The notes beneath the pieces were generated by a model. It made no database searches and had not been told where the DNA came from. It saw only the letters and a list, made by a program, of their open reading frames with translations. A stretch of 64,000 nt of DNA. Origin: Halobaculum gomorrense (GTDB taxonomy: Archaea > Halobacteriota > Halobacteria > Halobacteriales > Haloferacaceae). The stretch's first letter is position 1. Each line of letters starts with the position of its first letter. The translations under genes and the position numbers were made by a program. The stretch lies in assembly GCF_900129775.1 (NCBI RefSeq), contig NZ_FQWV01000003.1, forward strand, positions 248,001 to 312,000, given 5' to 3'. Below, one piece after another: positions 43,946 through 64,000 of the stretch.

Positions 43946-44110
43946 GGGTAGGGGACGGAATCCACGTGGGAATCCCGCCACCCGATTGTGGGTCGATAAA
44001 ACAGCGGCGGATCGAGATCCCGGACAGACCACTCGGTAGAGATCACCCGGTCGACCTGGGTGGTTATGACGCGAGACGCGCTAGTAGCGCACAGAGGACA
44101 CCAACGAATC

Positions 44111-44425: not shown

Positions 44426-44455
44426 GAGTTCTCAATGAGAACGGTAACTCAGCCC

Positions 44456-44938: not shown

Positions 44939-44941
44939 ACG

Positions 44942-45535
44942 CTACGGTGCAGAGGTGTTCTCTTCGGGACCGGACGAGTCTCCGCCGACGAACCGTTCTG
45001 CGTTGGCGATAGAGAGCGCAGCGTTAGCGAAGGCGAGATTTCGACGCGTAGTCTGCCATTCTTGGAGTGCGTCAGGATCAATCCCGTCCGCGTTGTCCGA
45101 CGCGTCAGAGAGTGTTTGGTTCGTGTGCTCAACCATCAGTTCATCAGGTGATTCGACGCCGTACGCCGTCTGGAACTCACTGATCGTTTCACGCATGGCA
45201 GAGATACGGTTCACGAGTTCGTCGACAGAGACGTGAGAGAGAATGTCCGTCGCCTGTTCCATGACGATCGACTCCGGCGATCGACGATAGTACGTCCCGC
45301 CATGGTCTCCCGTCGACGTGGCGACGAACCCCTCCTCGGCGAGTGCCATGAGATGTTTCCGAGCAGTCTTCGGTGACGTCCGTGCATCCGCTGCGACCGT
45401 CTCAGCAGAGCGTGGGGTATATTCGCGGCTAATGACTTCACGGACACGTTCATACGGCGTCGTCTCAGCCTCCCATTCCTCGCCGACTGCCTCGTTAACC
45501 TCGTCGAATTTTCCGGGAGCGGCGGAGTCTGTCAT
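44942..45535 (-). CDS. Winged-helix regulator paired with TumE-like protein
   Basis: 197 residues with an N-terminal winged-helix domain (about 25-90): YERVREVISREYTPRSAETV, AADARTSPKTARKHLMALAE, and a wing with STGDHGGTYYRR. The rest is helical, with VSVDELVNRISAMRETISEF. This architecture is that of haloarchaeal DUF7342-type regulators, found repeatedly upstream of small partner genes. Here the partner starts three bases after the stop, an arrangement typical of antitoxin-toxin operons in which the regulator neutralises the partner and represses the promoter. Confidence 0.7.
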   Translation of the reverse strand: MTDSAAPGKFDEVNEAVGEEWEAETTPYERVREVISREYTPRSAETVAADARTSPKTARKHLMALAEEGFVATSTGDHGGTYYRRSPESIVMEQATDILSHVSVDELVNRISAMRETISEFQTAYGVESPDELMVEHTNQTLSDASDNADGIDPDALQEWQTTRRNLAFANAALSIANAERFVGGDSSGPEENTSAP

Positions 45536-45669
45536 GTATCAAACCACGATTTGGAGTAGTATAGGTCTTTGGTTCAGTAGTATACTACTTTATCTCCCGG
45601 GATAGTTCTCGGAGTGGTTGAACTGAACGCAGATGCGTGTGAGGAGCTACAGAAATCGAACCACATGGC

Positions 45670-47096: not shown

Positions 47097-47209
47097 GATG
47101 AGCGAAGGCGAACCGCCGCTCTCGGTGGTTGGAGAACGTAGCTATTCCGCCCCTCATCCGATTCGGGACGGTAAATTGTCAGAGAGGGCCCAATCGTGGG
47201 TATCCAGAG

Positions 47210-47410
47210 ACGGTGGCAGGAGAATTGGCCGCATCTGATGCCTCGCCCATCACCCCGACGACGGCTGGATAGATTTCTTCGTCGGTGTCAGTCCCACTGG
47301 AAATCACTTCGATATTAGTTCGATTACGGATCTGTACCTGGGTTTCAGCGATGGCGGAAGCAATCTGGCTCCGACCCGCGTTTTCGACGCAGACGAAGCG
47401 AGCCAGAGTG
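47210..47410 (-). pseudogene. ArsC-like (low-molecular-weight phosphatase) remnant
   Basis: About 60 residues (RFVCVENAGRSQIASAIAE, then NIEVISSGTD) match the N-terminal active-site loop of ArsC-type arsenate reductases and low-molecular-weight tyrosine phosphatases, where the usual text is FVCVQNAGRSQMA with the Cys as nucleophile. A start codon at the right position and the remaining two-thirds of the protein are missing. It is a decayed fragment inside the low-GC segment. Confidence 0.6.
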
Positions 47411-47434
47411 AGTCGAGGATGTCTATCTGTAATA

Positions 47435-47800
47435 TCAGTTGAGAGCCTTGTTGTCAGTCGTCTTCGATGGATGGTCCTGGAGTGGCTGTGTTGGACCGCC
47501 CGACTGTGGACCCATCCCGGTCCACAAGATCCCGTTCCCGCGTCGAATTGCCCGTTGCAACCCCCGTTCTGCGATATTGCCGCCATGTTCGGCTGTCCGC
47601 TGAATGCTATCGAGAATGCGTGCGAGTCGGTAGTCTGCTGTCACATCCCCGAACAAGCGGCGATCTAACTCTGCCACTTCCTCACGAACGTGTGTACGGT
47701 GCTCGAGTGCCTCGCATACCGTGTCCGTTCCCTTATTATCAACAATACCCCTAACGGCGTAGTCGACGATGTCAAGCCCACGACTGAACTTTCCGGACAT
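47435..47800 (-). pseudogene. PhoU-domain fragment
   Basis: A 121-residue reading whose first 90 residues form helices with HRTHVREEVAELDRRLFG, YRLARILDSIQRTAEHGGNI and AERGLQRAIRR, the pattern of the C-terminal PhoU-type domain in haloarchaeal AbrB-PhoU regulators. The N-terminal DNA-binding part is absent, and the last 30 residues (WTGMGPQSGGPT and on) do not fit, so both ends are broken or shifted. A full small gene is possible but unlikely. Confidence 0.5.
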
Positions 47801-47870
47801 ACGGCAGTATCGTTACTGATTCGTGATAAGTAATCGTCTACCGCTTGATGTGGGGTTCGGACACTGGTTG

Positions 47871-48278
47871 TTACCGATAGATCGACAGCTCGGTCCGGTA
47901 CATGACAAGATACGCAGTCACATAGGCAGCACCCCAAACGATCGCTTGTGGCATACGGTTACTCCCAGAGATGGTCACGTCCAGTGCGAGGACACTCACC
48001 ATTCCGACAATGCCCAATCCGATCGCCGACGCGGTCAGGACGAACGCAAAATCACCTAACTGACCGAGCGACCAGTCACCGGCAACAACAGGATACGCAC
48101 CGCCGAACGCCAGAATACCGACGAACAAATTCACTGTTGTATCTGCAATCGGGGTGCCGAGGACAGTATTGCTCACCGACAGTACTGGATACCAGACGAT
48201 CGTAAAGCCCAGAATGCCAACAATAGGTCGTAGATTGCTGAGAGCCAGGAGCCGATCCCCCTGTTCAGCAGTCGCCAT
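47871..48278 (-). CDS. Four-span membrane protein of the accessory segment
   Basis: The ATG whose complement ends at 48278 gives 135 residues (MATAEQGDRLLALSNLRPIV). Four hydrophobic segments are visible: about 15-35 (GILGFTIVWYPVLSV), 45-65 (NLFVGILAFGGAYPVVAG), 73-97 (DFAFVLTASAIGLGIVGMVS) and 110-130. Codon use is much less GC-rich than in the backbone. The function is unknown; a longer reading upstream begins with an atypical Arg-rich stretch. Confidence 0.6.
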   Translation of the reverse strand: MATAEQGDRLLALSNLRPIVGILGFTIVWYPVLSVSNTVLGTPIADTTVNLFVGILAFGGAYPVVAGDWSLGQLGDFAFVLTASAIGLGIVGMVSVLALDVTISGSNRMPQAIVWGAAYVTAYLVMYRTELSIYR

Positions 48279-48473
48279 ATCCGTTCGTCGCAGTGACCGT
48301 ATGAGACGTTTGTGGTCAGGACAGCACCGTGGAACCGAATTCAAGTGACACGATTCTTTGGGGAGGGTCCGCTGTCACACGAGTGGTGGCACCAGCTACT
48401 TGACGGCGAGGCGACTGCCGGCCAGCTCCAGTTGGTCCACCAGTCCCGACGGTCGCGGTGGGAACTCCACATC

Positions 48474-48563
48474 CGCGACATCGAGTTCGTCGACGATCTG
48501 CCGATGACGTCCTCGGGGAAGATCCGGCGGGTCGAGTTGCGCGAGCGGGAGGAGTTGGGCTAG
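48474..48563 (+). pseudogene. Acyl-CoA synthetase remnant, last ~30 residues
   Basis: IRDIEFVDDLPMTSSGKIRR followed by VELREREELG and a TAG is the hallmark C-terminus of AMP-forming acyl/acetyl-CoA synthetases, including the catalytic Lys of SSGK. Nothing upstream in this frame belongs to the family, so the gene is cut near 48474. It defines the right boundary of the low-GC accessory segment and returns to backbone composition. Confidence 0.75.
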
Positions 48564-48640: not shown

Positions 48641-51145
48641 TCAGTAGGACTCCCGGAGGACGAGAGCGCCGTCCGCGTCGAAGACGGAGATCGTGTCTCC
48701 GGTGTCGTTCCAGATGGGCGCACCCGACTCCCAGTAGAGATCGGTGTCCGTGTCAGTCCCCTGACCGGTGCGCAGCCGCAGGCGCCCGCCGGCCGGCAGC
48801 GTGGTGCCCTCGGGGACCGTGTAGTTGTGACCCGCCGCATCTTCGACGCGCCAGCCCGAGAGGTCGAGGTCCCCGTCGCCGGCGTTGGCGAAGGTGAGGA
48901 ACTCCTCTGTGAGGTTCGCCCGCTCGGGTCCGGGCGAGTTCTCGCTGATCGCCGCGATTCGGATCGACCCGGTGCTCACATCTGGCGGTCGCGTCGGGTA
49001 GACCTGCTCGAGGACGATGGATCCCTCGGCGTCGGTCACGGTGACGGTGTCCCCCTCGTCGTTCCAGACATGGCCGTCGCGGTTCCAGTAGTAGTCGCCA
49101 CCACCGTCCGTGCCGTGGCCGGTCCGGAGCGTCACGCGCTGCCCGGGGGCGATCTCCGCGTCGGCCGGGAAGGTGTAGTCGTGGCCGGCCGCGTCGGCGA
49201 CCTGCCAGCCGCCGATCTGGAGCCGGTCCCCGCCGGCGTTCTCGAAGACGACGCGCTCCCGGGTCAGGTTCTCCCTAGGTTCGCCCGGGGTGTCGGCGAC
49301 CACATCGGCCAGCACGAGTCGGCCGGTCGGCGGGACGGGATCTCCCGTCGGGTAGGGTTCGGGCTCGTCGACCGGCGACTCCTCGCCGACGACGCGGGGG
49401 TCGACGAGCTGATCGAAGGCCAGACCGCTGTCGGTGGTGACGCGCCCGGCGTCGGCGTCTCGGCCGCTCCAGAGGTGCGCACGGCCGTCGGTCCAGCGCG
49501 TGTACTCGTACCGCCGCGACACGCGCTTGCCCCCCCGGGGGACCTCGTCCTCGGGGATCGCCTGGTCGTCGGTCAGAACCTCGCCGAGGGGGTCGGCCGC
49601 GGCACCGTCGCCGTCGAACAGCCGCCCGCGGTCCAGCGTCACGTCGCCAAGTGACACCCGCCGGGGCAGCAGCGGGAACCAGTTGGCCGGCACGTCCGTC
49701 GAGAGCTGGTAGGCGACGTCGGCGGCGTCGCTGGTCGCGACCGGCGTCGACTGGCCGTCGCCGATGGCGGTCTCAGTCTGGCGATCCCGGGCCTGGCCGA
49801 CGGTGCCCTCGACCGTCTCCTCGACGGCCCAGCCGACGTTTGCCACCTCGTCCCGGCCGAAGGCGACGGACTCGACCTCGTCGCCGGCCAGGGACTCGTC
49901 GACGACCGGTGGAAGGAACAGGCCGCGGCGGTTGCCGGCGGCGTCCAGGGCCATCGAGAAGCAGTTCCAGTTCGTGGTCGGGTCGTCGCCGGCGGTCACG
50001 GCGTCGTCGACGGTGACGGTCTCGTCGAACGTCGTCTCCAGTTCCAGGGACGTCACCTCGGCCATCGAACCAGTCGGCAGGTCGAGCGGTACGGTGAACC
50101 AGTCGTTGCCGTAGACGAGCCCAAACTCCAGAGTGAGCAGCCGCGAGAGGTCCTCCGGCGCGGCCTCGACGGCCGAGAAGTCGACCCCGCCGTCCTCGAT
50201 TTCCCACCAGCGAAACGCCGGCATGCCCTCGAACCGCGAGGGGGTGGGGACGCGACGTTTCGAGCGCGTTCGGCTCGCGGGGCCGGACGCTCCACCGGGC
50301 TCCAGCGAGCCGTCGTGATCGACGTCGAAGGCCCACCAGTCGAGCCGGCCGCCCTCGTATTCGCTGGCCGAGAGCACCGTTTCCTGGGCTCCGCCGCCCG
50401 TCGAGATGTCGAAGGAGTACTCGAGGCGGTTGTCGTCCCAGGTCGCGCCGTCGGCTTCGGGTTCCGCGTAGGTCTCGTCGTACCACTCGCGGTACGCCGC
50501 GACCGCGTCCCAGAAGTCGCCGAGTGCGTTCGCGTCGCTCGGATCGACGCCGTCCGGAAGCGGGACCGAGACGGCGTCGTCGGCGACGGCATTTCGGAAG
50601 GCCCGCTCGTCGGCGAATTCGTACGCGGCGTATACTTCGTCACCGTCGAGGACCCGGCCAGCCACGACCGAGGAGTAGCGCCGCCCCTCGTCGTCGGCGT
50701 CGGTCGACTCACAGTGCAGGCTCGCCGGGAAGTCGGCGGCCGCCAGGCCGAAGTCGTCGGCCAGCAGTCGGAGGAAGTGCGCGCCGGTCTCCGCGGCGAG
50801 CCGGACGTTCTTACCGGACTTGTCGGGAGCGTCCGGTCGAACTCGCTCGCGCTCAACGAGCGTCTCCAGGGGTGGCGTCGCCGTCGGATCGCTCTCGTCG
50901 TAGACGGTGTCGTGGGTGCCGTCGGAGCCGCCGCCGGGTCGGAACCGTGCCATCGGGTCGATCCGGACGTCGAGGCTGGCGTCGACGAGCGATCCGCCGT
51001 CCTCGCCGGTCAGCTCGCCGGTCTGCCACTGGCGACCCAGGAGCCAGAGGGGGTCCTGCACGGTGGCCCGGAGGCCGTCCCGAAGCTCTCGGTCCCGGGT
51101 CCGCGGTTCCAAGCGCGACCACGTGGTCACGGAGCGCTTTCCCAT
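48641..51145 (-). CDS. Large protein with two C-terminal lamin-tail domains, last gene of giant-protein operon
   Basis: An 834-residue acidic protein. The N-terminus (KRSVTTWSRLEPRTRDREL, then DPLWLLGRQWQTGELTGEDG) is a conserved opening I associate with uncharacterised bacterial proteins from similar multi-gene sets. The middle 500 residues are a beta/alpha domain with no known motif. At about 610-725 and 730-834 lie two lamin-tail (LTD) repeats, each with an asparagine-rich turn, GGWQVADAAGHDYTFP or SGWRVEDAAGHNYTVP, and a closing YYWNRDGHVWNDEGDTV or LYWESGAPIWNDTGDTI. There is no signal peptide. Its ATG overlaps the stop of the 2162-residue gene by one base (TGATG), so translation is coupled. 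Confidence 0.75.
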   Translation of the reverse strand: MGKRSVTTWSRLEPRTRDRELRDGLRATVQDPLWLLGRQWQTGELTGEDGGSLVDASLDVRIDPMARFRPGGGSDGTHDTVYDESDPTATPPLETLVERERVRPDAPDKSGKNVRLAAETGAHFLRLLADDFGLAAADFPASLHCESTDADDEGRRYSSVVAGRVLDGDEVYAAYEFADERAFRNAVADDAVSVPLPDGVDPSDANALGDFWDAVAAYREWYDETYAEPEADGATWDDNRLEYSFDISTGGGAQETVLSASEYEGGRLDWWAFDVDHDGSLEPGGASGPASRTRSKRRVPTPSRFEGMPAFRWWEIEDGGVDFSAVEAAPEDLSRLLTLEFGLVYGNDWFTVPLDLPTGSMAEVTSLELETTFDETVTVDDAVTAGDDPTTNWNCFSMALDAAGNRRGLFLPPVVDESLAGDEVESVAFGRDEVANVGWAVEETVEGTVGQARDRQTETAIGDGQSTPVATSDAADVAYQLSTDVPANWFPLLPRRVSLGDVTLDRGRLFDGDGAAADPLGEVLTDDQAIPEDEVPRGGKRVSRRYEYTRWTDGRAHLWSGRDADAGRVTTDSGLAFDQLVDPRVVGEESPVDEPEPYPTGDPVPPTGRLVLADVVADTPGEPRENLTRERVVFENAGGDRLQIGGWQVADAAGHDYTFPADAEIAPGQRVTLRTGHGTDGGGDYYWNRDGHVWNDEGDTVTVTDAEGSIVLEQVYPTRPPDVSTGSIRIAAISENSPGPERANLTEEFLTFANAGDGDLDLSGWRVEDAAGHNYTVPEGTTLPAGGRLRLRTGQGTDTDTDLYWESGAPIWNDTGDTISVFDADGALVLRESY

Positions 51146-54100
51146 CAGTCACCACCTCCGAAGCCCGCCACCTGCCACCAGTCGGGCATCAGGTCCGCCG
51201 GGTCGATGGAGGCCGTGTCGGGCCCCGCCGGGTCAGCACTCTCGTTGGTCGCGAACGCCAGCGCGGGCAGGAGCTGCCCGCCCGCGTCGAGCGCGTCCCG
51301 GTCGACCGTCCGGAGCTTCGCGAGGTCGACGCTCTCGCGAACCACGTCTGCTAGCGTCGAGACGCTCCAGTCCGCGTCCGTCGGCGGCACGGCGAGCAGC
51401 ATCGACTGGGGCGCCTGCTGGGACGGGCGGTCGTAGTGGAAGGTCAGCCCGGTGGTCTCCGTCTCCGTCGGCACCGTCTCGACGAACTCGTCGACGAACA
51501 GGCCCACGTACCGGGGACCGGACTGGCCCCCGCGCACGTCGGCGGCCACCGAGAGCCGCCCCGAAGGGTGCTCGCCGTCCCAGGCGTCGGGCAGCCCGAC
51601 CCACGGGTCCCCGGCGCCGTAGGGGAACTGGCCCACGCGGAACCGGGGTCCGTCGGCGGGCGAACGCGCTCCGAGGGTCTCGCCGTAGGTCAGGGCCCGG
51701 CCGAAGGTCGCAAGTTCGTCGCGGACCCGCGAGACACGGTCGAACCACCGCTCGACGGCCAGCGGATCTCCACCCTGGAGGGACTCGCTATGGGCCGGTG
51801 CGAGTGACTTCCTCACCTCGCCGGGGTTCGTCGGCTCAAAGGGAACGAGGACGGTGAAGGCCTCGCCGAACAGCGTCTCCAGGCAGTCGACGTAGGCTGC
51901 GGGTTCGGTCTCGGCGTCGCCCCGGTCGCGGTGGTCCGTCGCGGTCGCGAGCGTGTCGGCGACCTCCTCGTACACCGAGTCGGCCTGTCGCGCGAGGTCC
52001 GCCAGGTCGCTCTCGTCGCTTCCCGTCGCGGTCACCGGGACGCAGCCCTGGACCCCGAAGTCCGCACAGGTCAGCAGCGCCTCGCGGACCGCCTCCAGCG
52101 CCGCGGCGACGTAGGCCCGCTGTGGTTCCCGGCCGGCGGCGTCGATTCCGAGGTCCACGACGTCCAGACCGTCGGCCAGCGCGTCGAGCAGCGACTCCAG
52201 CGCCGACTCCGTCGGCACGCTCGACGTGAGCTTGGCGTTCGTGACGTGGTCGGCGGTGACGGGCTCCTCGCCGACCGCCGCGAGAACGGGCGCGACCCGC
52301 TGCCAGCCGCCGGGATCCTGGAGCCCGGGCAGGGAGGCTCCGGGCACTTCGCGGACCGCCGCGAGGTCCGCTTCGGCCTGAGCGGTCCAGGGCGGCGTCT
52401 CGAAGTCGGCAATTGCGGCGTCGACGACGCCGTCGGCCAGCGCGTCGCCGGCCGCAGCCGCCAACGCGGCGGCGTCGGCCACGGTTACGAGCGCGTCATC
52501 GGCCGCCCCGAGCGCCAGCAGGGCCGGCCCGGCGACGCTGTGGCGCTCGGGGTCGGTCGCCACCGTCGCGGCGACAGTTTCCGACCAGCCGCGACCGTCG
52601 CTGACCTCGATTTCCAGACGGTCGCCGGGGGAGAGTTGCTCGACGTCCAGCCCCGCCCGGACGCGTCCGTTCCCGGCGATCCTGCCGGTCGTGGCCTGGA
52701 GGCGTCGGCCGTTCGCCCGCGTGACGACTTCGATCTTCTCGAGGTCGGGATCCGCCAGCCCGCGAAGCACCGGCCGTTCGGGATCGAGCCGGATCTCGCC
52801 ACGCTCGGTGCGGGCAAACCGGACGTGGTCGCCCGCGACGGCCCCGGCGAGGGCGTCCAGCTCCGTCCGGAGGTCGTCGGACTCGACCTCAGCCACGCGC
52901 TCGCTTGCAGTCCGTACCGGCGCCGTCGGAATCGCCTCGATCGCCTCCGTCAGGGCCAGCAGGTCGCCGACGGCGCGGTCGCCAGTACCCTCGTCGACGG
53001 CGAGCACCGCGGACTGGACACCGAGCGTCTCGACGGCTCCCTCGAAGGTCGAGACGGCGGCGTCGGCCCGCTCGTCGAGGTCACCGACGACCTGCCCCTC
53101 GGCCGTCGCCTGGCCCGGCGGTGCGAGGTCCTGGGCGTCCAGCGGGCGACCGCCGCTAACGACCGACCCCACCGTCTTGGCGACCTCGAGCAGTTCGTCG
53201 AAGCCAACGTCCTGGTCGGGGTCGGCACCCAGCGCGGCCGCGTCGGGCCACGCTGCGGGTGCCTCGAAGGAGAGGCGAATCTCGCCGTCCGCCGGCACGT
53301 CCTCGCGGCTCTGCCGGAGATAGTGGGCAATGCGACCCTCGAGTTCGGAGGCCCACGCTCCCTCGTCGCCCTCGACGAGCGAGACGACGTCGAGCGCGGC
53401 GAGGTCGAGCTGCGAAAGCCGCACCGCCACTACGCGCCAGGTCGGCTCTGATTCCTCACCGTTGCCGGTGGTCGAGCCACCGCCGCCGGACGCCGTTCCG
53501 CTGTCGCTGGCGCCAGACTCGTCCGTGTCGTCGGTGTCCGGCCGGTAGGCGGCCCGGCAGACGACCCGCGCGGGATCGCCGAGGAACGTGCCGACCCAGT
53601 CCTCCAGGGCCGGCTCGGCTGCGGCGCGAGGCGACTGTCCCGGCGCCCAGGCGCTCTCGTCGGCCTCGGCGTCGAGCAACGCGGCGACTCGGTGGGTGCA
53701 ACTGGTTCCCGTCCGCGGCGTCCGGGCGACCTCGACCTCGTCGACGCTGCCGCCCCGCGAGAGCGCGTCCAGCGCCGATCCGGCCCGCTCCGGGTTGTTC
53801 TGGACGAGCTGGTAGACGCTCTCTACGGCGAGGAGGTCGCTGACCGAATCGAGCGCCGTCCCTATGGCGTCGAGCTCTGCCGTGATGGCGTCGTATGCTG
53901 CCTGGTCGGCGGCGGTGCTCGGATCCGGTAACGGGTCCATCTCGCTCCTGCCGACCTGCTGCCCCCAGGGGATGGCGTCCTCGCGCCACAGGTCGTGGAG
54001 CGTCACGCCGTCGACGGTCTCGCGCTCGGCGACGGCGTCGGACTCGCTCATCCCCTGTCGGTCGATGCTCCCCTCAACCAGCGGCGCAAGCGCGCGAAAG

Positions 54101-57100
54101 GCGTAGACGTACTGATCGAGTTCCACGTCGGGATGGTCCTCGTGAAGCGCCCTTTCGAAGCGCGTCCCTAGCAGCTCGCCGAGGGAGTGCCCGGCGCGGA
54201 CCCCTTCCAGGAGGTCCAGGGCGTCGCGGACGCGGTCGGAAGAGAGGTCGACGGCGAAGAGATCGCCGTACTCGTCGGTCTCGGCGTCGTGGACGCTCCG
54301 GAGGACCGCGGCGGCCGTCGCCTGGTCGATGGAGGGCGCGTGGACGTAGCCCGTCGAGCGGTCGCCGGACTCGGGCCGGAGGTCCTCGACGTAGCCGTAC
54401 GCGCCGACGTAGACGCCCTCGCTGCCGGCGTTGCGCATCCCCTCCAGGCGCCGCGTCGCCAGCGAGGTCTGCCAGGCGTCGAACCGGTGGCTCGCGAGGT
54501 CCAGCGTCTCGCTGACCGCCTGCTCGGCGACGGCCGGGTCGGCGTCCTCGAGCGTCCGGAAGCCGTCGATCAGCTCGGCGAAGGGGCGGTCGACTGCGGG
54601 AATTTCCCGCAGAATGTCGCCGATTCGCCAGTCCGACTCGGCGTCGGGGTGGCCGGCCAGCGGCTTCGGTACCTGGTCCTCCAGAGCGTCCCACATCGTC
54701 AGGTCGCCGTCGTCGTAGGTCTGGGGTTCTGGGACGAGCGACCACGGCCCGTCCGTCCAGGCCGCCCCGGCCTCGTACCGCTGGGCCCAGTTCTCGTAGT
54801 GGTCGGCGAGACGGACCCGTGCCAGGCGGTACTCCTGCAGGATCGCGTCGTAACAGAGCGTCGCCGCCACCGAGTCGTCGTCGTTATCGAACAGCGTCAG
54901 CAGCCAGGCCCCGAGGCCGTCGCCGATGTCGAGGTCGAGCCCCTCGTCGACGCCGGGCGGGCCCGCGCGAAGGCCATCGTGGCGGGTCGTCCGGAGCGCG
55001 TGCAACACCTCGGAGAGGTCGTCGTCCACGGTCGGGACCTCGACGACGTCGGCGTCTTGCCTGGCCAGCAGGTCCCCGATACGCGGGACGTGTCCCCAGG
55101 AACTGGCCGACTGGAGCTGTGCGGCGGTCGCGGCCCGGGCGTCGCCGACGGCGGACTCGACCGCCGAGCCCTCGTGAATCGTCGCCATTGCGTCGCTCCC
55201 CAGGAACTCGCGGAGCCGGTAGCCGTAGCTCGTGCCGGCCATCGAGAGGAGGTCCGAGGCGATGAGGTTCGGATCGCCCGCGTCCCCCGCCGTCGGGACC
55301 TGCCCAAGGGCGCTCTCGAAGTGTGGCCGCACGGCGTCGAGGAGGCCGTCAAGGTGCGCGGACACGTCGTCGTCGGCATAGCGTTCGTACTGGAAGTCCC
55401 CGGCATTCGTCGGCACGTCGGTCTCGGGCGTCGCGGCGAGCGCGGAAACGGGCTGCCAGTCGTCGTACGCCGTCGTGGGCAAAACACCGTACGGCTGGTC
55501 ACCGACACGGAGCGGGGGTGCCGGTCCACCGGCGCGGACGTAGGACACGAAGTGCCGGCGGTAGTCCTCCAGCCACTGGAGGAGCTGTCGGCGCTGGTAG
55601 ACGTTCTCCGCCCAGTTTCGCGGCGCCAGCAGGTGGGGGACGTAGTAGCCCCAGGTCGCAGACCAGAGCGCGGCGTTGGCGGCCCCGGCGGTGGCCGCCG
55701 TCCGGCCGTCGGCTCCCGGCACGCGGTCCAGGACGAAGGCCCGGTCGGTGCCGACGACGGCGGGGTCGAGGCCCAGCAGGTCGGCGAGTCGGGCGGCGTC
55801 CGCGTCGGCGTCCGACGCCGCGACGGGCTCCTGGACGCACTGGCGCTCGAACGGCGTCAGCCCCCCGGATGGGGTGGTGCCCGCCGGGTCGTCGCGTGTG
55901 TCGTTCGTGGGCGTCCCGCGCTCGAGCAGTTCGAGCCCGTCGGTGTAGCGGTGCCCCTCCAGCAGGTCGGCGAGGGCGATCGCCCCAGCGGTGGCGTCAC
56001 GTGCCGTCGAAACGCCCAGCACGGTCAGCCGGTCGACGCCGGCGTCGCGCTGGGCTTGGGTTAGCGGGATGCGCAGTACCATCCCGACGTCCTCGGCGGT
56101 CTCGTAGTCGAAGACCCACTCGATCTCGCCGGACCGCATCGCGTCGTGGTCGTCGGCGGTCTCGACGCTGCTCTGGAGGGCACCCGGGTCGGGGCCGATC
56201 GACAGCGGTCGCTGGACGGGGCCGCTCGTCGCCGTCACCTCGTCGCCGTCGGTCTCGGCGAACGCGATCCACTGGTCGGGGAGCAGGCGCGCTCGCGGTG
56301 GCCGCGTCCACGAGCCCGGTCGCCGGTCGACCGCCTCCCGGCGGTCCGCCTGGGCGGCCTCGAAGGCCGCGGGGTCCGCGTCGGCGACGTGGCCGTTCTC
56401 GGGCGGCCCCGCGAGCAGCGTCGCGGCGTCGTCCGGGGCCATCGCCCGCTTGACCCAGGCAGCCCGTTCGGCGCCGAACCGCTCTTCGAGCCGCGTCCAG
56501 GCCCGCTCAAGGACGGCGGCGTGGCGCTCGGCCGGATCGGTCGGGAAGTCCGACAGGTCGACGGTCTCCAGGCGGTCCGCCGGCAGGTTCGCCTGCAGTT
56601 CGTCGGCGCTGCCGGTGTGGCTCGCCCACCAGACCTGCGCCCAGAAGCGGGTGCCACCGTCGACTTCGGCCGCTGTCAGTGCCCGCTCGTGGGTGTCGAC
56701 GTGGAGGTCGTCGGGATAGACCCGCACGAGCAACTCGTACCGCGGCGGTTCCGAGACGGGGTCGCCGTTCCCGTCGGTCCGCCTGCTGAATCTGGTTTCC
56801 AGGCGAGTGGGCGTCAACAGGACGGGGTTCTCGTGGTCGAGCGCCGGGTGCTCGTCGTCGTGGCCGCTCGGGTACGTTGCGACGAGGTCGGCGGTCACGT
56901 CGCCGAGGTCGGCCCGCCGGCGTCGAGCAAACGCGTCGAGGGCGCGGCCGGCGCGGTCGAATGGCAAACGGGCCGACGCGTACGCGGCGGAATCCGCGTC
57001 CACGATGGCCTTCGTGAGGGCGTCGAGTTCGCTCTCCAGCGCGTCCCGGTCGGTTCCAAGCCGGAGAAGGGCTTCGCCGACGAACGGGCCGCGTTCGGCC

Positions 57101-57633
57101 TCAAGGAGCTTGAGCAGGTCGGCCCGCGTCTCGACGCCGCGTTTCTCGAACCCCTCGACCAGGGCTGCTGTCGCCGCCTCGAAGGCCGCCCGGTCCCGGT
57201 CCTCAAAGGCCCGTTCCAAGTCGGCGACGACCGTCTCCAGCGGTTCGAAGTCGTCCCCGCCGCCCGCGACGGCGTCTTCGATTGGGCTCATGACGTCCTC
57301 GAACCGCTGACCGGCGCCCGCGTCGAAGGCTTCCTGGAGCGGCCCGGGGAGCTCCTGGGGGGTCTCCACGCCGAACTTCCGGAAACGCGGCTCCTCTGCG
57401 GTCAGGCCGACGGCCGCGAGCTCGGAGCGTTCGTGCCTCCAGCCGGCGGCCAGTGTTTCGAGTTCCGAGACGACCTCGTCGGTCCCGTCCAGTGGCTCGC
57501 CGCGCCTCGCCGCGTCGAAGTGGCGCTGGACCGCTTCGAGGCTCGTCAGCAGCTGCGACCGGTCGGTCGAGGCCCGCCGTGCGTCCTCACTCGCCGCCGC
57601 GTAGCGCTCGCGGAGCGTCCCGATGTCGGTCAC
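51145..57633 (-). CDS. Giant protein (2162 residues) of uncharacterised operon
   Basis: A GTG at 57633 begins one uninterrupted frame of 6.5 kb. The first 270 residues are helical (DARRASTDRSQLLTSLEAVQ). From about 275 comes a conserved-looking section with LLTPTRLETRFSRRTDG, YELLVRVYPDDLHVDTHERA and FWAQVWWASHTG, wording I recall from bacterial hypothetical proteins in comparable clusters. Further parts are long helical and beta stretches (RNWAENVYQRRQLLQWLEDY, PLRVGDQPYGVLP, GVYVGAYGYVEDLR). Near the C-terminus FRVGQFPYGAGDPWVGLPDA and RYVGLFVDEFVETVP occur. No transmembrane span, signal peptide or catalytic motif was found. The size and coupling suggest a scaffold of a large assembly. Confidence 0.75.
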   Translation of the reverse strand: MTDIGTLRERYAAASEDARRASTDRSQLLTSLEAVQRHFDAARRGEPLDGTDEVVSELETLAAGWRHERSELAAVGLTAEEPRFRKFGVETPQELPGPLQEAFDAGAGQRFEDVMSPIEDAVAGGGDDFEPLETVVADLERAFEDRDRAAFEAATAALVEGFEKRGVETRADLLKLLEAERGPFVGEALLRLGTDRDALESELDALTKAIVDADSAAYASARLPFDRAGRALDAFARRRRADLGDVTADLVATYPSGHDDEHPALDHENPVLLTPTRLETRFSRRTDGNGDPVSEPPRYELLVRVYPDDLHVDTHERALTAAEVDGGTRFWAQVWWASHTGSADELQANLPADRLETVDLSDFPTDPAERHAAVLERAWTRLEERFGAERAAWVKRAMAPDDAATLLAGPPENGHVADADPAAFEAAQADRREAVDRRPGSWTRPPRARLLPDQWIAFAETDGDEVTATSGPVQRPLSIGPDPGALQSSVETADDHDAMRSGEIEWVFDYETAEDVGMVLRIPLTQAQRDAGVDRLTVLGVSTARDATAGAIALADLLEGHRYTDGLELLERGTPTNDTRDDPAGTTPSGGLTPFERQCVQEPVAASDADADAARLADLLGLDPAVVGTDRAFVLDRVPGADGRTAATAGAANAALWSATWGYYVPHLLAPRNWAENVYQRRQLLQWLEDYRRHFVSYVRAGGPAPPLRVGDQPYGVLPTTAYDDWQPVSALAATPETDVPTNAGDFQYERYADDDVSAHLDGLLDAVRPHFESALGQVPTAGDAGDPNLIASDLLSMAGTSYGYRLREFLGSDAMATIHEGSAVESAVGDARAATAAQLQSASSWGHVPRIGDLLARQDADVVEVPTVDDDLSEVLHALRTTRHDGLRAGPPGVDEGLDLDIGDGLGAWLLTLFDNDDDSVAATLCYDAILQEYRLARVRLADHYENWAQRYEAGAAWTDGPWSLVPEPQTYDDGDLTMWDALEDQVPKPLAGHPDAESDWRIGDILREIPAVDRPFAELIDGFRTLEDADPAVAEQAVSETLDLASHRFDAWQTSLATRRLEGMRNAGSEGVYVGAYGYVEDLRPESGDRSTGYVHAPSIDQATAAAVLRSVHDAETDEYGDLFAVDLSSDRVRDALDLLEGVRAGHSLGELLGTRFERALHEDHPDVELDQYVYAFRALAPLVEGSIDRQGMSESDAVAERETVDGVTLHDLWREDAIPWGQQVGRSEMDPLPDPSTAADQAAYDAITAELDAIGTALDSVSDLLAVESVYQLVQNNPERAGSALDALSRGGSVDEVEVARTPRTGTSCTHRVAALLDAEADESAWAPGQSPRAAAEPALEDWVGTFLGDPARVVCRAAYRPDTDDTDESGASDSGTASGGGGSTTGNGEESEPTWRVVAVRLSQLDLAALDVVSLVEGDEGAWASELEGRIAHYLRQSREDVPADGEIRLSFEAPAAWPDAAALGADPDQDVGFDELLEVAKTVGSVVSGGRPLDAQDLAPPGQATAEGQVVGDLDERADAAVSTFEGAVETLGVQSAVLAVDEGTGDRAVGDLLALTEAIEAIPTAPVRTASERVAEVESDDLRTELDALAGAVAGDHVRFARTERGEIRLDPERPVLRGLADPDLEKIEVVTRANGRRLQATTGRIAGNGRVRAGLDVEQLSPGDRLEIEVSDGRGWSETVAATVATDPERHSVAGPALLALGAADDALVTVADAAALAAAAGDALADGVVDAAIADFETPPWTAQAEADLAAVREVPGASLPGLQDPGGWQRVAPVLAAVGEEPVTADHVTNAKLTSSVPTESALESLLDALADGLDVVDLGIDAAGREPQRAYVAAALEAVREALLTCADFGVQGCVPVTATGSDESDLADLARQADSVYEEVADTLATATDHRDRGDAETEPAAYVDCLETLFGEAFTVLVPFEPTNPGEVRKSLAPAHSESLQGGDPLAVERWFDRVSRVRDELATFGRALTYGETLGARSPADGPRFRVGQFPYGAGDPWVGLPDAWDGEHPSGRLSVAADVRGGQSGPRYVGLFVDEFVETVPTETETTGLTFHYDRPSQQAPQSMLLAVPPTDADWSVSTLADVVRESVDLAKLRTVDRDALDAGGQLLPALAFATNESADPAGPDTASIDPADLMPDWWQVAGFGGGD

Positions 57634-57691
57634 GCGACCACCCCGTTGACGGCGGTGATCCGGCGATGCGGCGCTCGTCGTGGGTTAGTCC

Positions 57692-60600
57692 TCATTGTGA
57701 TCCTCCGTTCGTCGGCAGCATGTCGTCGGCGTGGATCGCGGCCCGAAACGGCCTGATCCAGGTTATCTCGGCCATGTGGGCGCCGTTCTTGCTCCAGGCC
57801 GGATTGGTCGGCAGGTCCCCGGGGGCCGGCGCGGCGTCAGTCAGGGAGTCCCGGCCCGCCGAGACGTAGCCGTTCGCCGTCACGTCGTCCCAGGTCAGGT
57901 CCTCCCAGGTCCAGTCGGCGTCGGGAACGTCGTTGCTCCCGCCGACGTCGAGGCCGAAGCTCGGGCCGCTCGGGGGCTCCTCGATGACGAAGAACCAGCC
58001 CGGATCCGCCTTCGCCTCCTCCTCCGTCAGGTCGAAACCGAAGAAGGTGACGTCTGGGTCGAGCCTCCCCCGGAAGATCGGGTGTTTCACGGTCCCGCCC
58101 CCGTCGTCCATGTTCGGCAGGTCCGGTTTCCGCTCGAGTTCGGCGTCCTCGGCGGCGTCGACGCCCTTCGCGGCGTAGACGTGGGTGTTGGGGTACCGGT
58201 CGAACACCGCCCCGCGGACCACCAGGACCACTCTGGCGCCGGCGTCGCCGCTGGGGCCACCGTCCGTCTTGGCGGCCATCTTCGCCAGGTAGTTGCCGCC
58301 GAGGTCCGCGGCGTCGTCCCAGCGGTGGACGTAGCCGATGTCCTTTTTCGCCTCCGGTGACAGGGGCGGATCCCGGCCTTCCGGGTTCCAGAACTGCCGG
58401 AAGTAGGTCCCTCGAAGGTCCGTGGGATACTCCCGCCAGCGGAGTTCGCGGGCGAACTCGTGGCTCAGGCCGAGCATGTACGACTCGACGAAGGCCGGGT
58501 TCGTCTCGAGGACGCCCACGCTGTCGAGGGGAATCTCCCCGACGCCGGGTACGAGCTTGTCCTGGCTCAGGTCCCGGAGCGGGCCGTACATCGGCTCGTC
58601 AAACTCGGGATGGGCCAAGATCTGGGCCAGCGGTTCGTCTCGTCCGTCGAGGGGCAGGCCGTCGAGTCGCCCGCCGATTCGGTCCGGTATCGTAACCGCC
58701 GGATCCGTGGCGTTCTGGACGGCGTCGGCCGTGGTCTGGAAGTCGAGCGGGGGCGAATCTGTCGGCGAGTCCCGGGGGCAGACACGCGGGCCGACGGCGT
58801 CGGCTGCCGGGTCCCATGGGGCGTCGGCCAGTCGGCGCTCGAACAGGTCCAGGTACCACTCGACATCCTCGCAGGCATCCCCGAGGGTCGCCAGCGGTCC
58901 CTCCTCGGGGTCGCGGAGCCGTGCGAGGCGTGCCTCGGCCATCGCGAGGACCTGCTGCATCGTGGCGACGACCCGGCGAACACGGCGGACGTCACCCGTC
59001 CAGACGGCGGCCGAAAGCGCCCGGCGGAGTTTCCCACAGAGGAGCGAGCACAGCGAGGACAACTCGGCGAGGACTGCGGGCGGGTCCTCGTCGCCGCCGA
59101 GGTGTTTGTCGAGGGCGGTGCGACCGCGGGTGCAGGCGTGCGCGAACAGTCCGTCGAGGATCAGGCGAACCCAGAGAGTCGTGACGGCCGAGTCGAGGGT
59201 CCCGACGGCCGGCGTCACGCCCGGGGACTCCTCGAGTACCTCCTCGAGTTCGCTCCCGGGAGTTGCCATCTCCTGAAGGGTCTCGTGGCTCGCCCTGGCG
59301 TCGGTCAGCCACCGCTCGACGCCGTCGATGGCCGACCGGATGGCCGCTTGATCTTCCGATTCGACGGCCGCCTGGAGCGCGTCGAGTTCGCTCTCCCAGT
59401 CACCCGTTCCGCAGATGGGGAACAGGACCTCCCGGAGGACGCCTAGTTCGGCTGTCGCCTGCTCGTCGACTTTCTGCGTAGCCGTCTCGGTCCGCTCGCG
59501 CGCCTCCCGACACGCCTTCCTGACCGCGTCGATGGCCTCTGTGATCGGCTGATCAGCGGTCGGGCCGAGCAGTCGCCAGTCAGCGACCGCGTCCTCGCGT
59601 TCCCGGGCGGCCGAGCAGAGCTGCCCGGCCAGTTCGTCGCCGATCACTTGCGTCCCGCTCGGCGCGTCGCCGTCGTCGCCCGGCGTGATCGACCCGTCGT
59701 TGATCCCTTCAACGATCCGCTCGCGGCGGACGCCGCCGAGTCGGCTCGACAGTGGGCCACCGGGTCTGGTTGCGCGCCGGAACGCCGGCGAGAGGACGGC
59801 CGACGGGAGGGCGCTGCCCTCGACGGCGGCGGCGATCGTTTCGCTCGTCGCGTCGTTGAGGAGACGGCCGTGAGCGGGTTCGGTGAGCGTGAGGCGCGCC
59901 GCGGGCGAGAGATCACCCATCGCGTTGTGGATGGACTGGCTCGCGGTCCGTGCGAGGCGAGCGTGGCGGAGCAGGCGGTTGGCCTCGCGGATGTCCCCGA
60001 CCTGGTTCCAGGCCTCGGCCATCAGCGCCTCCTGGCGCTCTTGGACGACCTCGGTCCCGTAGGCGGCGGGGACGCGATAGCGCGGGTCGACGTTGCAGTC
60101 CCGCAGCCACGCCGGCGGGTCGCCCTCGGCGGGAACGTCTTCGGTGGCGGGCGGCCACTGGCCGTAAATCGGCGGGCCGAGGATTCGGTCGTCGCCGCTG
60201 TCGCCGGGAACCGCCGACTCAGGGGCCAGTGCGCTGGCCTGATCGAGGATGTTCGTCAGCGCCGGTTTCAGGGAGTCGCTGTAGGTGTCCGTCGAGATGG
60301 TCGTCGACGTCAGCGCCCCCTCGACGGTGACGACCTCTCCCGGGCTCTCCAATTCGCTCGGGCCCGGGTCGCCGGCGTCGACCTGCCGGACGCCCACACC
60401 GTCGAGGACCGAGGGCTCCAGCCGCCGGACGAGCGATTCGAAGTCCCCGGCCTTGCCCGTCGAGAACTCCCAGTGGTAGTAGACTGGCAGTCGGAGCTGT
60501 GCCGGGGGACTGCTCGCGTCCCAGGCGTCCCCGTGGGACCTGACGACGGTGCCGTCATCGTCGCGCTCGTAGGGTTGCTTCCCGAGCCCCGCCAGCCGCC

Positions 60601-61234
60601 CCGGCTCGAAGGTCGGCACGACGCAGGCGTAGTAGTCGGTGTCCGGTTCGAGCTGTCGGGGCGAGAGAAGCCGTGCCAGCGTCTTGGTCGACCGGTCGGT
60701 CGTCAGGGCGTCGCGGGCCGACGCACCCTCGTCGAGGCCGACCACCTGCGCGTGGGCCCAGGCCCAGGATTGCGAAAGGTCCGGCAGGTGCTCGCCCGGC
60801 GACGCAGGGTCACGCACGTCCAGTATCGCCGCCGGCGCGTCGGTGCCGGTCTGGAGCGAGACGCCCTCCGTCTTCTCGACGGTCAGGAGGCAGCACCAGG
60901 GCCGGAGCTTCCCCTGTTCGTCCGGCGTCTCGGGGGTGAACAGCCACGGCAGGGTCGGATCGTCAAGTTCGACGAGCGGGAAGTGGTTCGGCGGGAAGTC
61001 ACTGGTCCCGGACGTGGGTTCGGTCCGGACCACCTGCTGGAGGTCGATGCCGGTCACCTCGCCCGGGCCGTACAGCGACAGGTCGACCGAGGCTTCGCGG
61101 GTCTCGGTGCCCTTCGACCCGGTCCCCTCGACCGGGAGCGTCACGCCCACGGACCAGTCGTCGCCGCTGCCGTCGCTCGGCTGGTAGCCCTCACGGACCC
61201 AGGGAACGAACCTGTACCTGGCGTCGCTGCTCAT
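57692..61234 (-). CDS. Large protein (1180 residues) of uncharacterised operon
   Basis: From the ATG at 61234. The N-terminal 250 residues have DARYRFVPWVREGYQP, then GIDLQQVVRT and NHFPLVELDDPTLPWLFTPE, and LRPWCCLLTVEKTEGV, a pattern shared with bacterial hypothetical proteins that accompany DUF6603 proteins. The middle is helical (QEALMAEAWNQVGDIREANRLL) with many Glu/Arg. The C-terminus has YMLGLSHEFARELRWREYPT, WFFVIEEPPSGPSFGLDV and TAAPAPGD-like turns. No known catalytic residues, membrane spans or export signal. Its start overlaps the stop of the DUF6603 gene by four bases (ATGA), and the giant gene starts 58 bases after its stop. Confidence 0.75.
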   Translation of the reverse strand: MSSDARYRFVPWVREGYQPSDGSGDDWSVGVTLPVEGTGSKGTETREASVDLSLYGPGEVTGIDLQQVVRTEPTSGTSDFPPNHFPLVELDDPTLPWLFTPETPDEQGKLRPWCCLLTVEKTEGVSLQTGTDAPAAILDVRDPASPGEHLPDLSQSWAWAHAQVVGLDEGASARDALTTDRSTKTLARLLSPRQLEPDTDYYACVVPTFEPGRLAGLGKQPYERDDDGTVVRSHGDAWDASSPPAQLRLPVYYHWEFSTGKAGDFESLVRRLEPSVLDGVGVRQVDAGDPGPSELESPGEVVTVEGALTSTTISTDTYSDSLKPALTNILDQASALAPESAVPGDSGDDRILGPPIYGQWPPATEDVPAEGDPPAWLRDCNVDPRYRVPAAYGTEVVQERQEALMAEAWNQVGDIREANRLLRHARLARTASQSIHNAMGDLSPAARLTLTEPAHGRLLNDATSETIAAAVEGSALPSAVLSPAFRRATRPGGPLSSRLGGVRRERIVEGINDGSITPGDDGDAPSGTQVIGDELAGQLCSAAREREDAVADWRLLGPTADQPITEAIDAVRKACREARERTETATQKVDEQATAELGVLREVLFPICGTGDWESELDALQAAVESEDQAAIRSAIDGVERWLTDARASHETLQEMATPGSELEEVLEESPGVTPAVGTLDSAVTTLWVRLILDGLFAHACTRGRTALDKHLGGDEDPPAVLAELSSLCSLLCGKLRRALSAAVWTGDVRRVRRVVATMQQVLAMAEARLARLRDPEEGPLATLGDACEDVEWYLDLFERRLADAPWDPAADAVGPRVCPRDSPTDSPPLDFQTTADAVQNATDPAVTIPDRIGGRLDGLPLDGRDEPLAQILAHPEFDEPMYGPLRDLSQDKLVPGVGEIPLDSVGVLETNPAFVESYMLGLSHEFARELRWREYPTDLRGTYFRQFWNPEGRDPPLSPEAKKDIGYVHRWDDAADLGGNYLAKMAAKTDGGPSGDAGARVVLVVRGAVFDRYPNTHVYAAKGVDAAEDAELERKPDLPNMDDGGGTVKHPIFRGRLDPDVTFFGFDLTEEEAKADPGWFFVIEEPPSGPSFGLDVGGSNDVPDADWTWEDLTWDDVTANGYVSAGRDSLTDAAPAPGDLPTNPAWSKNGAHMAEITWIRPFRAAIHADDMLPTNGGSQ

Positions 61235-64000
61235 GGCTGGCCCCCCTGGGCCGCTTCGTGTGTGGCGACGACGCGGTAGTCCTCCGGACTCCCTCCGGAC
61301 TCGGCGAGATACGCGTCCAGGGCCTCCTGTGCTTCGCGCCTCGTCGCTCCGTCCGCCGGCACCCCGTCGACGTCGAGTCGTGTCATGTCTGAAGCGGTCA
61401 CCACCACGTACTGCGCATCACCGACCGACAGGCTCGTCTCGACGCCCGTCGGCTTGGTCTCGTCGTCGGCTGCGAAGCGCGCCTCGCCGGTCGTCCGGAG
61501 GTCCCCCCGTGCCACTGCGCTCACGGAGGCAAGTGCCCTCGCCGTCGACGCGGGCATCGCGATTCGACCGACGCCGACCGGAAAGAGGGAGGCCTGTTCG
61601 TCGATCACGGCCGTCTCGTAGTCCAGAACGCCGTCTGCGGTCTGGTCCCCGAACGAAAGTGCCGTGTTGCCCAGCCGCCAGCCCGCGGCGTAGCGTTCGA
61701 ACTCCGGCCCTTCCAGCTTCTCGGCGTTGCTCAGCTGGAAGTACTCGGCCGGTGCGAACCGCTCGCGAGTGGTTTCGCCCTCCTCGTCAATCCCGCCGAC
61801 GGTCGCGCCCGTGATCTCGTAGCGGTCGTAGTTAGCGGGCGTACCGTTGCCGAACTTCTCGATGCGCACCTGCATCGGCGCGACCTGCTGGCGGACGGCG
61901 ATCTGCCCGAGCGGGTGGGCTAGCACCTTGTCGCCCTCGCGTTTCAGCTCCCGGACCGTGACGATCGACTCGCCGCCGGCCGGGCGCTGGGCCGTCCAGT
62001 TGCGCGAGTCCGACAGCCCGCTCACGACCTGGCCGAAGATGTCCGCCGGCGAGAGCTGGTCGGCGGACTTCGAGGGTCCGAACTCCGCGTCGACCGACAC
62101 CGAGAACGATATCGGCCAGATCTTGAAGGAGGCCTTGCCGTGCAGGTTCCACGGTCCCGGCCCCTTCAGCGTCCCGTCGAGGTCGACGCTCATGAGCGTC
62201 GACCCGCCACGCTTCAGGGCGAAGCCCGCGTAGAAGTCCGCGACTAACTCGAACGGCTGGAACCGGAACAGCGTGTCGAACCCGAGCTTGCCCTCGAAGG
62301 AGAAGCCGGCCGCAGCGGCGTACGCGTCGACGCGTGCGCCGACCTGGACCGTGTTGGACGTGACCGCGAAGTAGCCCGAAAGCCGGACCTCCGGGTTACC
62401 CGGCCCGATCGAGAGTGCGATCCGGTCGAGCGAGGGAAAGTTCGAGGGGGGCTCGAACCGGGGGTTGAAGCCGCCCACCGAGAGGACGAACGTCGCGTCG
62501 TCACCCCAGCCGGTCTTGACGGCCATGTCGCCCGTGAGGACGTAGGCGACGATTCGGGAGTCGTAGAGGCTCGCCGCGCCGTTGGCCTGCTGGGCCTCGA
62601 CGTCGACGGCACCGAGCAGGTCCATGTTGAAGACGACGATGCCGATCTCCTCGTGGGGCAGGCCGACGTGAATCCGGCCGAGGAGGACGATTCGAACCGG
62701 GCTGGGGACGTCCAGCAGCACGCCGAGGCTCGCCGAGAGCATCGACGGCGTGCCCCAGCCGAGTTTGGCCATCGGGCCGACGATGTGGTTCCCCGCCGCG
62801 ACCGGGAAACCGTTCCGGAGGTCGCTGATGATCTGCGGAGCGTTCCGGACGGGATCCTCCGGGAACATGATGGAGCGGACGGTCCCGTCGCTCAGCCCAG
62901 CCGTCAGGTAGTCCACGTCGATCGAGCGGTTGGCGCCGACCAGCCCGCCTAGGCCGTCGAGCGTGAAGCCGAAGCCGAGCTGGAAGGCCGGGAACTGCCC
63001 GGAGATGATCAAGAGCAGCGAGAACCCGTCCCTGCCGTTGGGGAGCTCGGTGGTCAGCAGGCCGACGGCGGTGATTGTCAGCTCGCCGATCTTGAGCTGG
63101 AGGACGCCGCTGTAGCGTTTCTTCTCGTGGTCGAAGGTGAGGAAGCCACCGCCGGTGACGACGCCCGCGTCCAGTGACATACCCGCTCCCGTCGGCGGCT
63201 TGAAGCCGAGGTCGACGTGGACCGGTCCGAGGTTCCCCGAGTTGTCCTGGGGGAAAGAGAGTTTGGCCTCGAGGCCGATGCCCTTGACGACGGCGTCGAA
63301 CGGCCCGAGGGAGACCTGTGGGTTGGCGGCGATCTGGACCGGGACGGTGACGCTGCCACCGGAGGGGTTGGCCTCCATCGCGAGACGGAGGGTTTCGACC
63401 TTCACGACGCCGGCGATGTCGAGGTTGACCGGTATATCCGTCGTGATGCCGGCCCCGCCCATAAAGTAGAGCCCGCGCTCGGTGTGGTAACCGATCCCGG
63501 CGTCGAAGTCAATCGCGATACCTTCCTCGGGAAGGATCTTCTGAATGAACGAGTCGGCGTTGCCGGCGTCGACGACGAACGAGGAGTTCCCCGCGCCGCC
63601 TTGGAATCCGCCCTCCAGACCCGCGTCGGTAGCTGTCAAACCCCCCTCGACGCCGACTTCACCGAGTTCGAGGCGGGTCCCCTCCCCTGGGCCGAGGACG
63701 AAGGCATTGCCTGTCTGCGGGTCGGGCGGCTTGGTAAGCGAGAACTCGGCGGTGAGCTCAGACATCCCGGACGGATCCAGCGGCTCGATTCCCGATGGGG
63801 AAAGCAGCATCGGCTCCGTCTGCCCACTCATACCCACGACGAGGGTCCACTCGCCGAGCGACTCGTCGAGCGTGGTTTGCCCGGTGGGGAAAAAGAACAG
63901 CTTGACGCCATCGGGAGTGCCCGCTAACGCGATGGTGAGGCTGAAAGCCACCGAGTCGGAGACGGCGAGCGTGAGCTGTAGCTGTCGCGAGTAGTGAACG
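61231..64000 (-). CDS. DUF6603 protein, 5' end outside window
   Basis: The frame is open at the right edge: codons for VHYSRQLQLTLAVSDSVAFS precede the GTG at 63951 without a stop, so that GTG is not the start and the N-terminus lies outside. At least 922 residues. The wording GGGFLTFDHEKKRYSGVLQL, NGRDGFSLLLIISGQFPAFQ, LGFGFTLDGLGGLVGANR, MLSASLGVLLDVPSPVRIVL and LYDSRIVAYVLTGDMAV is the DUF6603 family as I know it from bacteria. The whole is rich in amphipathic beta strands that would suit a beta-barrel or beta-helix, with no signal in view. It is the first gene of the operon visible here. Confidence 0.78.
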   Translation of the reverse strand, partial: VHYSRQLQLTLAVSDSVAFSLTIALAGTPDGVKLFFFPTGQTTLDESLGEWTLVVGMSGQTEPMLLSPSGIEPLDPSGMSELTAEFSLTKPPDPQTGNAFVLGPGEGTRLELGEVGVEGGLTATDAGLEGGFQGGAGNSSFVVDAGNADSFIQKILPEEGIAIDFDAGIGYHTERGLYFMGGAGITTDIPVNLDIAGVVKVETLRLAMEANPSGGSVTVPVQIAANPQVSLGPFDAVVKGIGLEAKLSFPQDNSGNLGPVHVDLGFKPPTGAGMSLDAGVVTGGGFLTFDHEKKRYSGVLQLKIGELTITAVGLLTTELPNGRDGFSLLLIISGQFPAFQLGFGFTLDGLGGLVGANRSIDVDYLTAGLSDGTVRSIMFPEDPVRNAPQIISDLRNGFPVAAGNHIVGPMAKLGWGTPSMLSASLGVLLDVPSPVRIVLLGRIHVGLPHEEIGIVVFNMDLLGAVDVEAQQANGAASLYDSRIVAYVLTGDMAVKTGWGDDATFVLSVGGFNPRFEPPSNFPSLDRIALSIGPGNPEVRLSGYFAVTSNTVQVGARVDAYAAAAGFSFEGKLGFDTLFRFQPFELVADFYAGFALKRGGSTLMSVDLDGTLKGPGPWNLHGKASFKIWPISFSVSVDAEFGPSKSADQLSPADIFGQVVSGLSDSRNWTAQRPAGGESIVTVRELKREGDKVLAHPLGQIAVRQQVAPMQVRIEKFGNGTPANYDRYEITGATVGGIDEEGETTRERFAPAEYFQLSNAEKLEGPEFERYAAGWRLGNTALSFGDQTADGVLDYETAVIDEQASLFPVGVGRIAMPASTARALASVSAVARGDLRTTGEARFAADDETKPTGVETSLSVGDAQYVVVTASDMTRLDVDGVPADGATRREAQEALDAYLAESGGSPEDYRVVATHEAAQGGQP

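Follow-up and report, generated by a model that had tools for sequence, protein, structure and literature searches.

The window analysed here is a stretch of 64,000 nucleotides of the haloarchaeon Halobaculum gomorrense (contig NZ_FQWV01000003.1, positions 248,001 to 312,000), and its final part is taken up by a set of very large, tightly coupled genes named here DUF6603 (after the Pfam domain of its product), P3, P2 and P1. It is proposed, with a probability of about 0.5, that these core genes, together with an exchangeable gene in front of them, form a cargo-loading and probably cargo-delivery cassette, in which an exchangeable enzyme would be joined by DUF6603 as an adaptor to a fixed P3-P2-P1 complex and leave the cell with the assembled particle. 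Comparison of the sequences has established the cassette itself, the order of its genes, the swapping of the cargo and the linkage of the N-terminal half of DUF6603 to the cargo and of its C-terminal half to the other core proteins.

Conserved order of the core genes

The four core open reading frames lie on the minus strand, from 48641 to 64000 and onward, as a first-pass annotation of this DNA had listed them. The protein sizes which it gave (834, 2162, 1180 and more than 922 residues) were right, the last being 1159 residues in full when flanking sequence is included (L003:1232-4711, ending at window-equivalent position 64710). So were the junctions: P3 and DUF6603 overlap by 4 bases (61231-61234), P2 and P3 are separated by 58 bases (57634-57691), and P1 and P2 overlap by 1 base at 51145. 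The DUF6603 match which it had named was recovered with Pfam PF20248 at 448 bits against a gathering cut-off of 27 (residues 433-996, E 5.6e-134), which makes the protein a full member of this family; the family is broader than the cassette. Absent from the earlier annotation were a fifth coupled gene of 419 codons, which lies outside the window upstream of DUF6603 and overlaps its start by 1 base, and two Lamin Tail Domains (LTD) in the 834-residue P1.

A strong DUF6603 relative was found in 17 of the 392 haloarchaeal genomes scanned, and in all 17 the genes DUF6603-P3-P2-P1 follow each other in the same order on one strand. Because a search of the genome contig collection with the single DUF6603 protein gave no match, an alignment of P3 was used for it; the profile detected 149 relatives, and 79 distinct loci were fetched. 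They belong to bacteria (Nitrospirota, Acidobacteriota, Actinomycetota, Pseudomonadota, Bacteroidota, Cyanobacteria, Planctomycetota, Verrucomicrobiota, Chloroflexota, Myxococcota and Gemmatimonadota) and to archaea (Halobacteria and Nitrososphaerales). Profile searches of the open frames revealed the same gene order in all 79, the exceptions being genes lost at the ends of a contig or of the fetched stretch. In every locus DUF6603 is the first core gene, the median spacing of neighbouring genes is -1 to 4.5 bases, and 4-base overlaps are frequent. Since this order recurs in two domains of life, the cassette is far beyond chance.

The four genes co-occur wherever P3 was found, so that they are a conserved set as the first-pass annotation had supposed, and conserved, coupled large proteins are most likely parts of one complex. 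Its own refuting test, by which the genes would not occur together elsewhere or would each match an unrelated known family, did not go against it. Its idea of a large complex stands in this respect, DUF6603 being one of the proteins; the exchangeable head gene and its joint change with DUF6603 were not foreseen. The core proteins are acidic (D+E 14-19%, K+R 6-9%), as had been noted. P1 consists of a core of about 580 residues which it shares with the bacterial proteins, followed in the window protein by the two LTD (Pfam PF00932, E 2.9e-38 in two stretches); the first copy was recognised from an internal repeat, in which residues 598-720 match the second copy, with the LTD model itself matching at 629-711. 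In P3 the N-terminal 500 and C-terminal 350 residues are conserved, and the middle of the haloarchaeal proteins is long and helical. P2 has about 1350-2060 residues in most bacteria.

Additional genes are seen in some cassettes. In 12 loci of the Nitrospira type P3 and P2 are separated by a constant gene for a 269-residue protein, irrespective of the cargo (e.g. L072:12632-13441). A Bacteroidetes cassette carries at the same place a 607-residue gene product (L125:12985-14808) in which inspection by eye suggests a signal peptide at the start, repeats of FG-GAP-like and PKD-like type and, at the C-terminus, a tail similar to a type IX sorting domain. In about 8 of the 17 haloarchaea the cassette adjoins PKD-repeat proteins (e.g. 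L035:4356-9014) that have a single predicted transmembrane span and end in a large domain, for which proteins the role of a membrane tether is possible. DUF6603 is more widespread than the cassette: among 247 Actinomycetes it occurs in 24, about 10 of these with P3. A divergent second DUF6603 clade was also observed in Actinomycetes (L148-L163, frames of 1361-3575 residues); in four genomes the next frame downstream is weakly similar to P3 (E 5e-5 to 1e-7), and neither P2 nor P1 was found with it in these four. This is possibly a second type of system.

Upstream cargo and the two halves of DUF6603

The gene immediately upstream of DUF6603 is on the same strand and within 100 bases in 57 of 62 cases, 24 of them with a 4-base overlap. 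Its family differs by locus and comprises PhoD-like phosphatases, M64, S8/subtilase and trypsin-like peptidases, PLD-like phospholipases, patatins and galactose oxidase-like, pore-former-like and Cys peptidase-like proteins. About 61 loci were labelled with a cargo class, and on the tree of P3 this class switches at least 20-21 times. Eight of the upstream proteins, proteases that fall into two fold classes (subtilases and two trypsin-like enzymes, the latter assigned by the GDSG motif), have a common C-terminal domain of about 125 residues despite their different catalytic domains. The haloarchaeal cargo is mostly pore-former-like, a PhoD-like enzyme being found once. The C-terminal region of the pore-former-like proteins resembles the BTH_I2691/Tke5 (VasX-type) pore-forming effectors (E 1.9e-11 to 1e-4), which suggests a remote likeness to the BTH_I2691 family; a toxic helical region of Tke5 has been described (PMC12909789). 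The cargo of the window's genome is of another kind. Together with the two relatives seen (Natrarchaeobius, L060, and a Natrinema plasmid, L062) it has invariant DQ-x5-C214, H372 and H392-x-[WY]-G395, a putative cysteine-peptidase active site; a Pfam and PDB search of this 419-residue protein gave no match.

When two loci carry different cargo, it is the N-terminal half of DUF6603 that changes with it. The Nitrospira loci L080 (M64 cargo) and L076 (S8 cargo) are 94% identical in P3 and 93% in P2, and their DUF6603 proteins are 21-30% identical over the first 500 alignment columns and 81-97% over the last 300-400. With the same M64 cargo, L072 and L080 have 72% identity in P3 and 35-66% in the first half of DUF6603. 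Over 73 Nitrospira pairs the identity of the N-terminal half correlated with cargo similarity (rho 0.85) and not with P3 (0.16), and that of the C-terminal half with P3 (rho 0.82). Across all pairs with P3 at 65-99%, the mean identity of the N-terminal half was 69% for the same cargo class versus 20% for different classes, an effect reached in 0 of 500 permutations of the cargo labels by a test which ignores relatedness. The haloarchaea repeat this pattern: L062, which has a Cys cargo, and G216, which has a pore-former cargo, are 58% identical in P3, 73% in the C-terminal part of DUF6603 and 23% in its N-terminal half; the window protein and L062, both with Cys cargo, are 45% identical in P3 and 36% in that half. 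Several Nitrospira loci have two pairs of cargo and DUF6603 preceding one P3-P2-P1, and the DUF6603 copies of such loci cluster by cargo, not by species. On account of this split co-variation and grouping by cargo, the best reading of DUF6603 is that of an adaptor with two faces, the N-terminal half of which would face the cargo and the C-terminal half P3-P2-P1.

Delivery weighed against other functions

In the proposed mechanism the first gene would encode an exchangeable enzyme or toxin, at the window locus a putative cysteine peptidase. The N-terminal half of DUF6603 (helical bundle and beta region) would recognise a particular cargo and the C-terminal half (long beta meander) would dock on the fixed P3-P2-P1 complex. 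The assembled particle would then take the enzyme out of the producer cell, through release or contact, and the enzyme would act on other cells or on an external substrate. The export step is assumed because the cargo types normally act outside their maker and yet mostly have no signal peptide by hydropathy scan, and also because of the LTD in P1; such domains have been linked to membrane-associated hydrolases in a haloarchaeal paper (PMC5118699). It is suggested more tentatively that the cassette is a new archaeal-bacterial protein-delivery machine, unrelated to phage tails and known secretion, in which DUF6603 couples one cargo to a universal P3-P2-P1 particle.

Several points weigh against delivery. 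The physical complex, the loading and the export are inferred, and their basis is indirect. Neither a translocon nor an ATPase, a sheath or a membrane protein was recognised in the core, and no export signal was found in the core proteins by a simple hydropathy scan, which is a crude method and agrees with the first-pass annotation. The same scan gives some PhoD-type cargo mildly hydrophobic N-termini. The Nitrospira pairs are not independent and the cargo pairs in the statistics are interrelated. The best BTH_I2691 match reached 43 bits against a curated NCBIfam cut-off of 150 and concerned the C-terminal region only. A constant immunity gene was not found at the cassette loci.

The core proteins were searched in Pfam, NCBIfam, PHROGs, PADLOC and PDB, as single sequences and as 36-48-row profiles, and no family or solved relative was significant beyond DUF6603 itself and the lamin tails. 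P2 had no relative in Pfam, NCBIfam or PDB. The tail-protein match in PHROGs was limited to the lamin-tail end of P1, and fibritin matched DUF6603 at E 0.007. AlphaFold models cover two of the four core proteins. That of DUF6603 (pLDDT 79, pTM 0.50) has an N-terminal helical bundle followed by a long antiparallel beta meander; the bundle includes a Leu/Ala-rich stretch, the only segment above the transmembrane threshold in the hydropathy scan. The P3 model (pLDDT 77, pTM 0.65) had no match among PDB folds at E <= 0.001. Foldseek paired DUF6603 with the LptD/FimD barrels at E 7e-5, but with TM 0.15-0.27 and an rmsd of 18.8 A, so that on these models the likeness is one of local texture, not of a common fold; an outer-membrane beta-barrel is also contradicted by the missing signal peptide (hydropathy scan) and by hosts which include archaea and Actinomycetes. 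Hits of the DUF6603 N-terminus among designed helical bundles were put down to composition. A viral origin was not supported, no relative being found in the scan of viral contigs. An unverified 40-kb contig from human faeces named 'Bacteriophage sp.' (L147, MT835531.1) holds the end of a cassette at its edge (the end of DUF6603, P3, P2 and P1) and is probably bacterial.

Among the competing explanations, intracellular defence or suicide is unlikely but fares best. The giant proteins would sense infection or damage and then set the cargo attached to them (protease, lipase or pore-former) free within the producer. Such a function would suit the apparently cytosolic core and cargo (hydropathy scan) and the patchy distribution, with some copies on plasmids; it is general knowledge that patatins, PLD, trypsin/subtilase and pore-formers also serve as effectors of abortive defence. 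It fits poorly with galactose oxidase-like, M64 and PhoD-like cargo, usually extracytoplasmic enzymes, and with a core in which no sensor or NTPase domain is recognisable and which the PADLOC defence models match only via the generic lamin-tail domain.

Rather improbable is a nutritional or surface scaffold, a large complex bound to the cell surface which would display a single extracellular hydrolase or oxidase at a time with no killing. Pore-former-like cargo is ill-suited to nutrition and the core lacks signal peptides by hydropathy scan, even though the cargo is mostly composed of hydrolases or oxidases, P1 ends in lamin-tail domains, about every second haloarchaeal locus encodes next to the cassette a PKD-repeat protein with a predicted membrane span and the Bacteroidetes cassette gene with FG-GAP-like repeats has a signal-peptide-like start.

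It is very improbable that the role of DUF6603 and the giant proteins is to supply effectors to a contractile injection system (extracellular, eCIS, or type VI secretion system, T6SS) encoded elsewhere in the genome, in spite of the pore-former-like cargo resembling T6SS effectors and of a phage-sheath family gene being present in 19 of the 22 non-haloarchaeal carrier genomes picked by hand, since carriers free of sheath genes largely refute it as a general explanation. The general linkage suggested by the 19 of 22 vanished in class-wide samples: sheath genes occur in 3 of 17 haloarchaeal carriers versus 50 of 392 haloarchaea overall, and in 3 of 10 carriers versus 39 of 247 Actinomycetes overall. 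The sheath gene PF04984 was found neither in the window's genome nor in 14 of the 17 haloarchaeal carriers, and Pfam and NCBIfam searches detected no sheath, tube, baseplate or spike domain in the core and cassette genes. The figure for the hand-picked genomes probably reflects a bias that comes with large environmental genomes, and an association with contractile systems may hold in particular phyla. The cassette does not depend on contractile injection systems, which exist as T6SS-like machines in haloarchaea (PMC11566945).

The proposed delivery cassette can be compared with known systems. In T6SS effector-adaptor pairs such as Tap3-Tke5 (PMC12909789) an effector-adjacent adaptor likewise ties the effector to a common machine, and the haloarchaeal cargo resembles the pore-forming region of the BTH_I2691 family; however, DUF6603 was unrelated to DUF4123 adaptors by any search run, and the cassette is without sheath, tube and spike, as are most of the haloarchaeal genomes. 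Polymorphic toxin systems (PMC3482391) similarly keep the part for trafficking constant and exchange the toxin or enzyme parts joined to it, but the variable part of the cassette is mostly a whole upstream gene and half of the adaptor gene instead of a C-terminal tip, and a constant downstream immunity gene is missing. Tc (ABC) toxins are a loose analogy, with several giant proteins jointly carrying an enzyme. Nevertheless, Pfam found no TcA, TcB or Rhs domain in the core and PDB profiles gave no match; the best PDB match of the P3 model is a Tc chain, without significance (E 0.03, probability 0.23, TM 0.08).

Features of the window and meaning of the cassette

Table 1. Cassette features in the window and beyond its edge
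Feature	Position	Strand	Remarks
P1	48641..51145	-	834 aa; 40-row alignment A4; Pfam LTD
Second Lamin Tail Domain of P1	48653..48976	-	residues 724-831; best PF00932 stretch
First Lamin Tail Domain of P1	49001..49333	-	about residues 605-715, approximate boundaries
P2	51145..57633	-	2162 aa; 36-row alignment A5
P3	57692..61234	-	1180 aa; 48-row alignment A3
DUF6603 protein, proposed adaptor	61231..64000	-	C-terminal 922 of 1159 residues within window; Pfam PF20248
DUF6603 domain	61723..63414	-	residues 433-996; identity tracks P3-P2-P1
DUF6603 N-terminal region, portion	63511..64000	-	about residues 1-400; identity tracks upstream cargo; extends past window
Putative cysteine-peptidase cargo (P0006)	L003:4711-5970 = window-equivalent 64710-65969		419 aa; beyond window edge

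Upstream of the cargo gene lie genes which we take to be of the cobalamin type. On the other side, a short frame on the opposite strand (48346-48563, plus strand, reading ...FVDDLPMTSSGKIRRVELRERE) terminates at a distance of 77 bases from the cassette end; it resembles the C-terminal end of an acyl-CoA synthetase, has no match in Pfam and is probably a gene remnant. The stretch from 42000 to 48000, between metabolic genes and the cassette, has a GC content of 0.57-0.62 against about 0.70 and few confident genes, and may mark an insertion region. Farther away (35774-41098, minus strand) two tandem proteins of 850-866 residues, both of which combine an FAD-dependent oxidoreductase with a GCV_T domain in one chain, are dimethylglycine dehydrogenase-like.

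The concepts of an adaptor and of polymorphic cargo are known; the proposed machine itself is not known from the literature searched, which comprised no preprints and in which DUF6603 is not mentioned. It is unlikely that a mere curiosity would be a five-gene unit whose three core proteins lack recognised relatives, whose order is strict in Halobacteria, Nitrososphaerales and about a dozen bacterial phyla, and whose cargo can be a protease, a phospholipase, a phosphatase or a pore-former. The half-and-half co-variation yields an adaptor model that can be tested directly and would assign a role to a Pfam domain whose function was unknown, and the cargo position makes it possible to find new effectors from gene order alone. 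If delivery is true, the cassette would offer enzymes a new way of passing from one microbe to another, in hosts without contractile injection systems.
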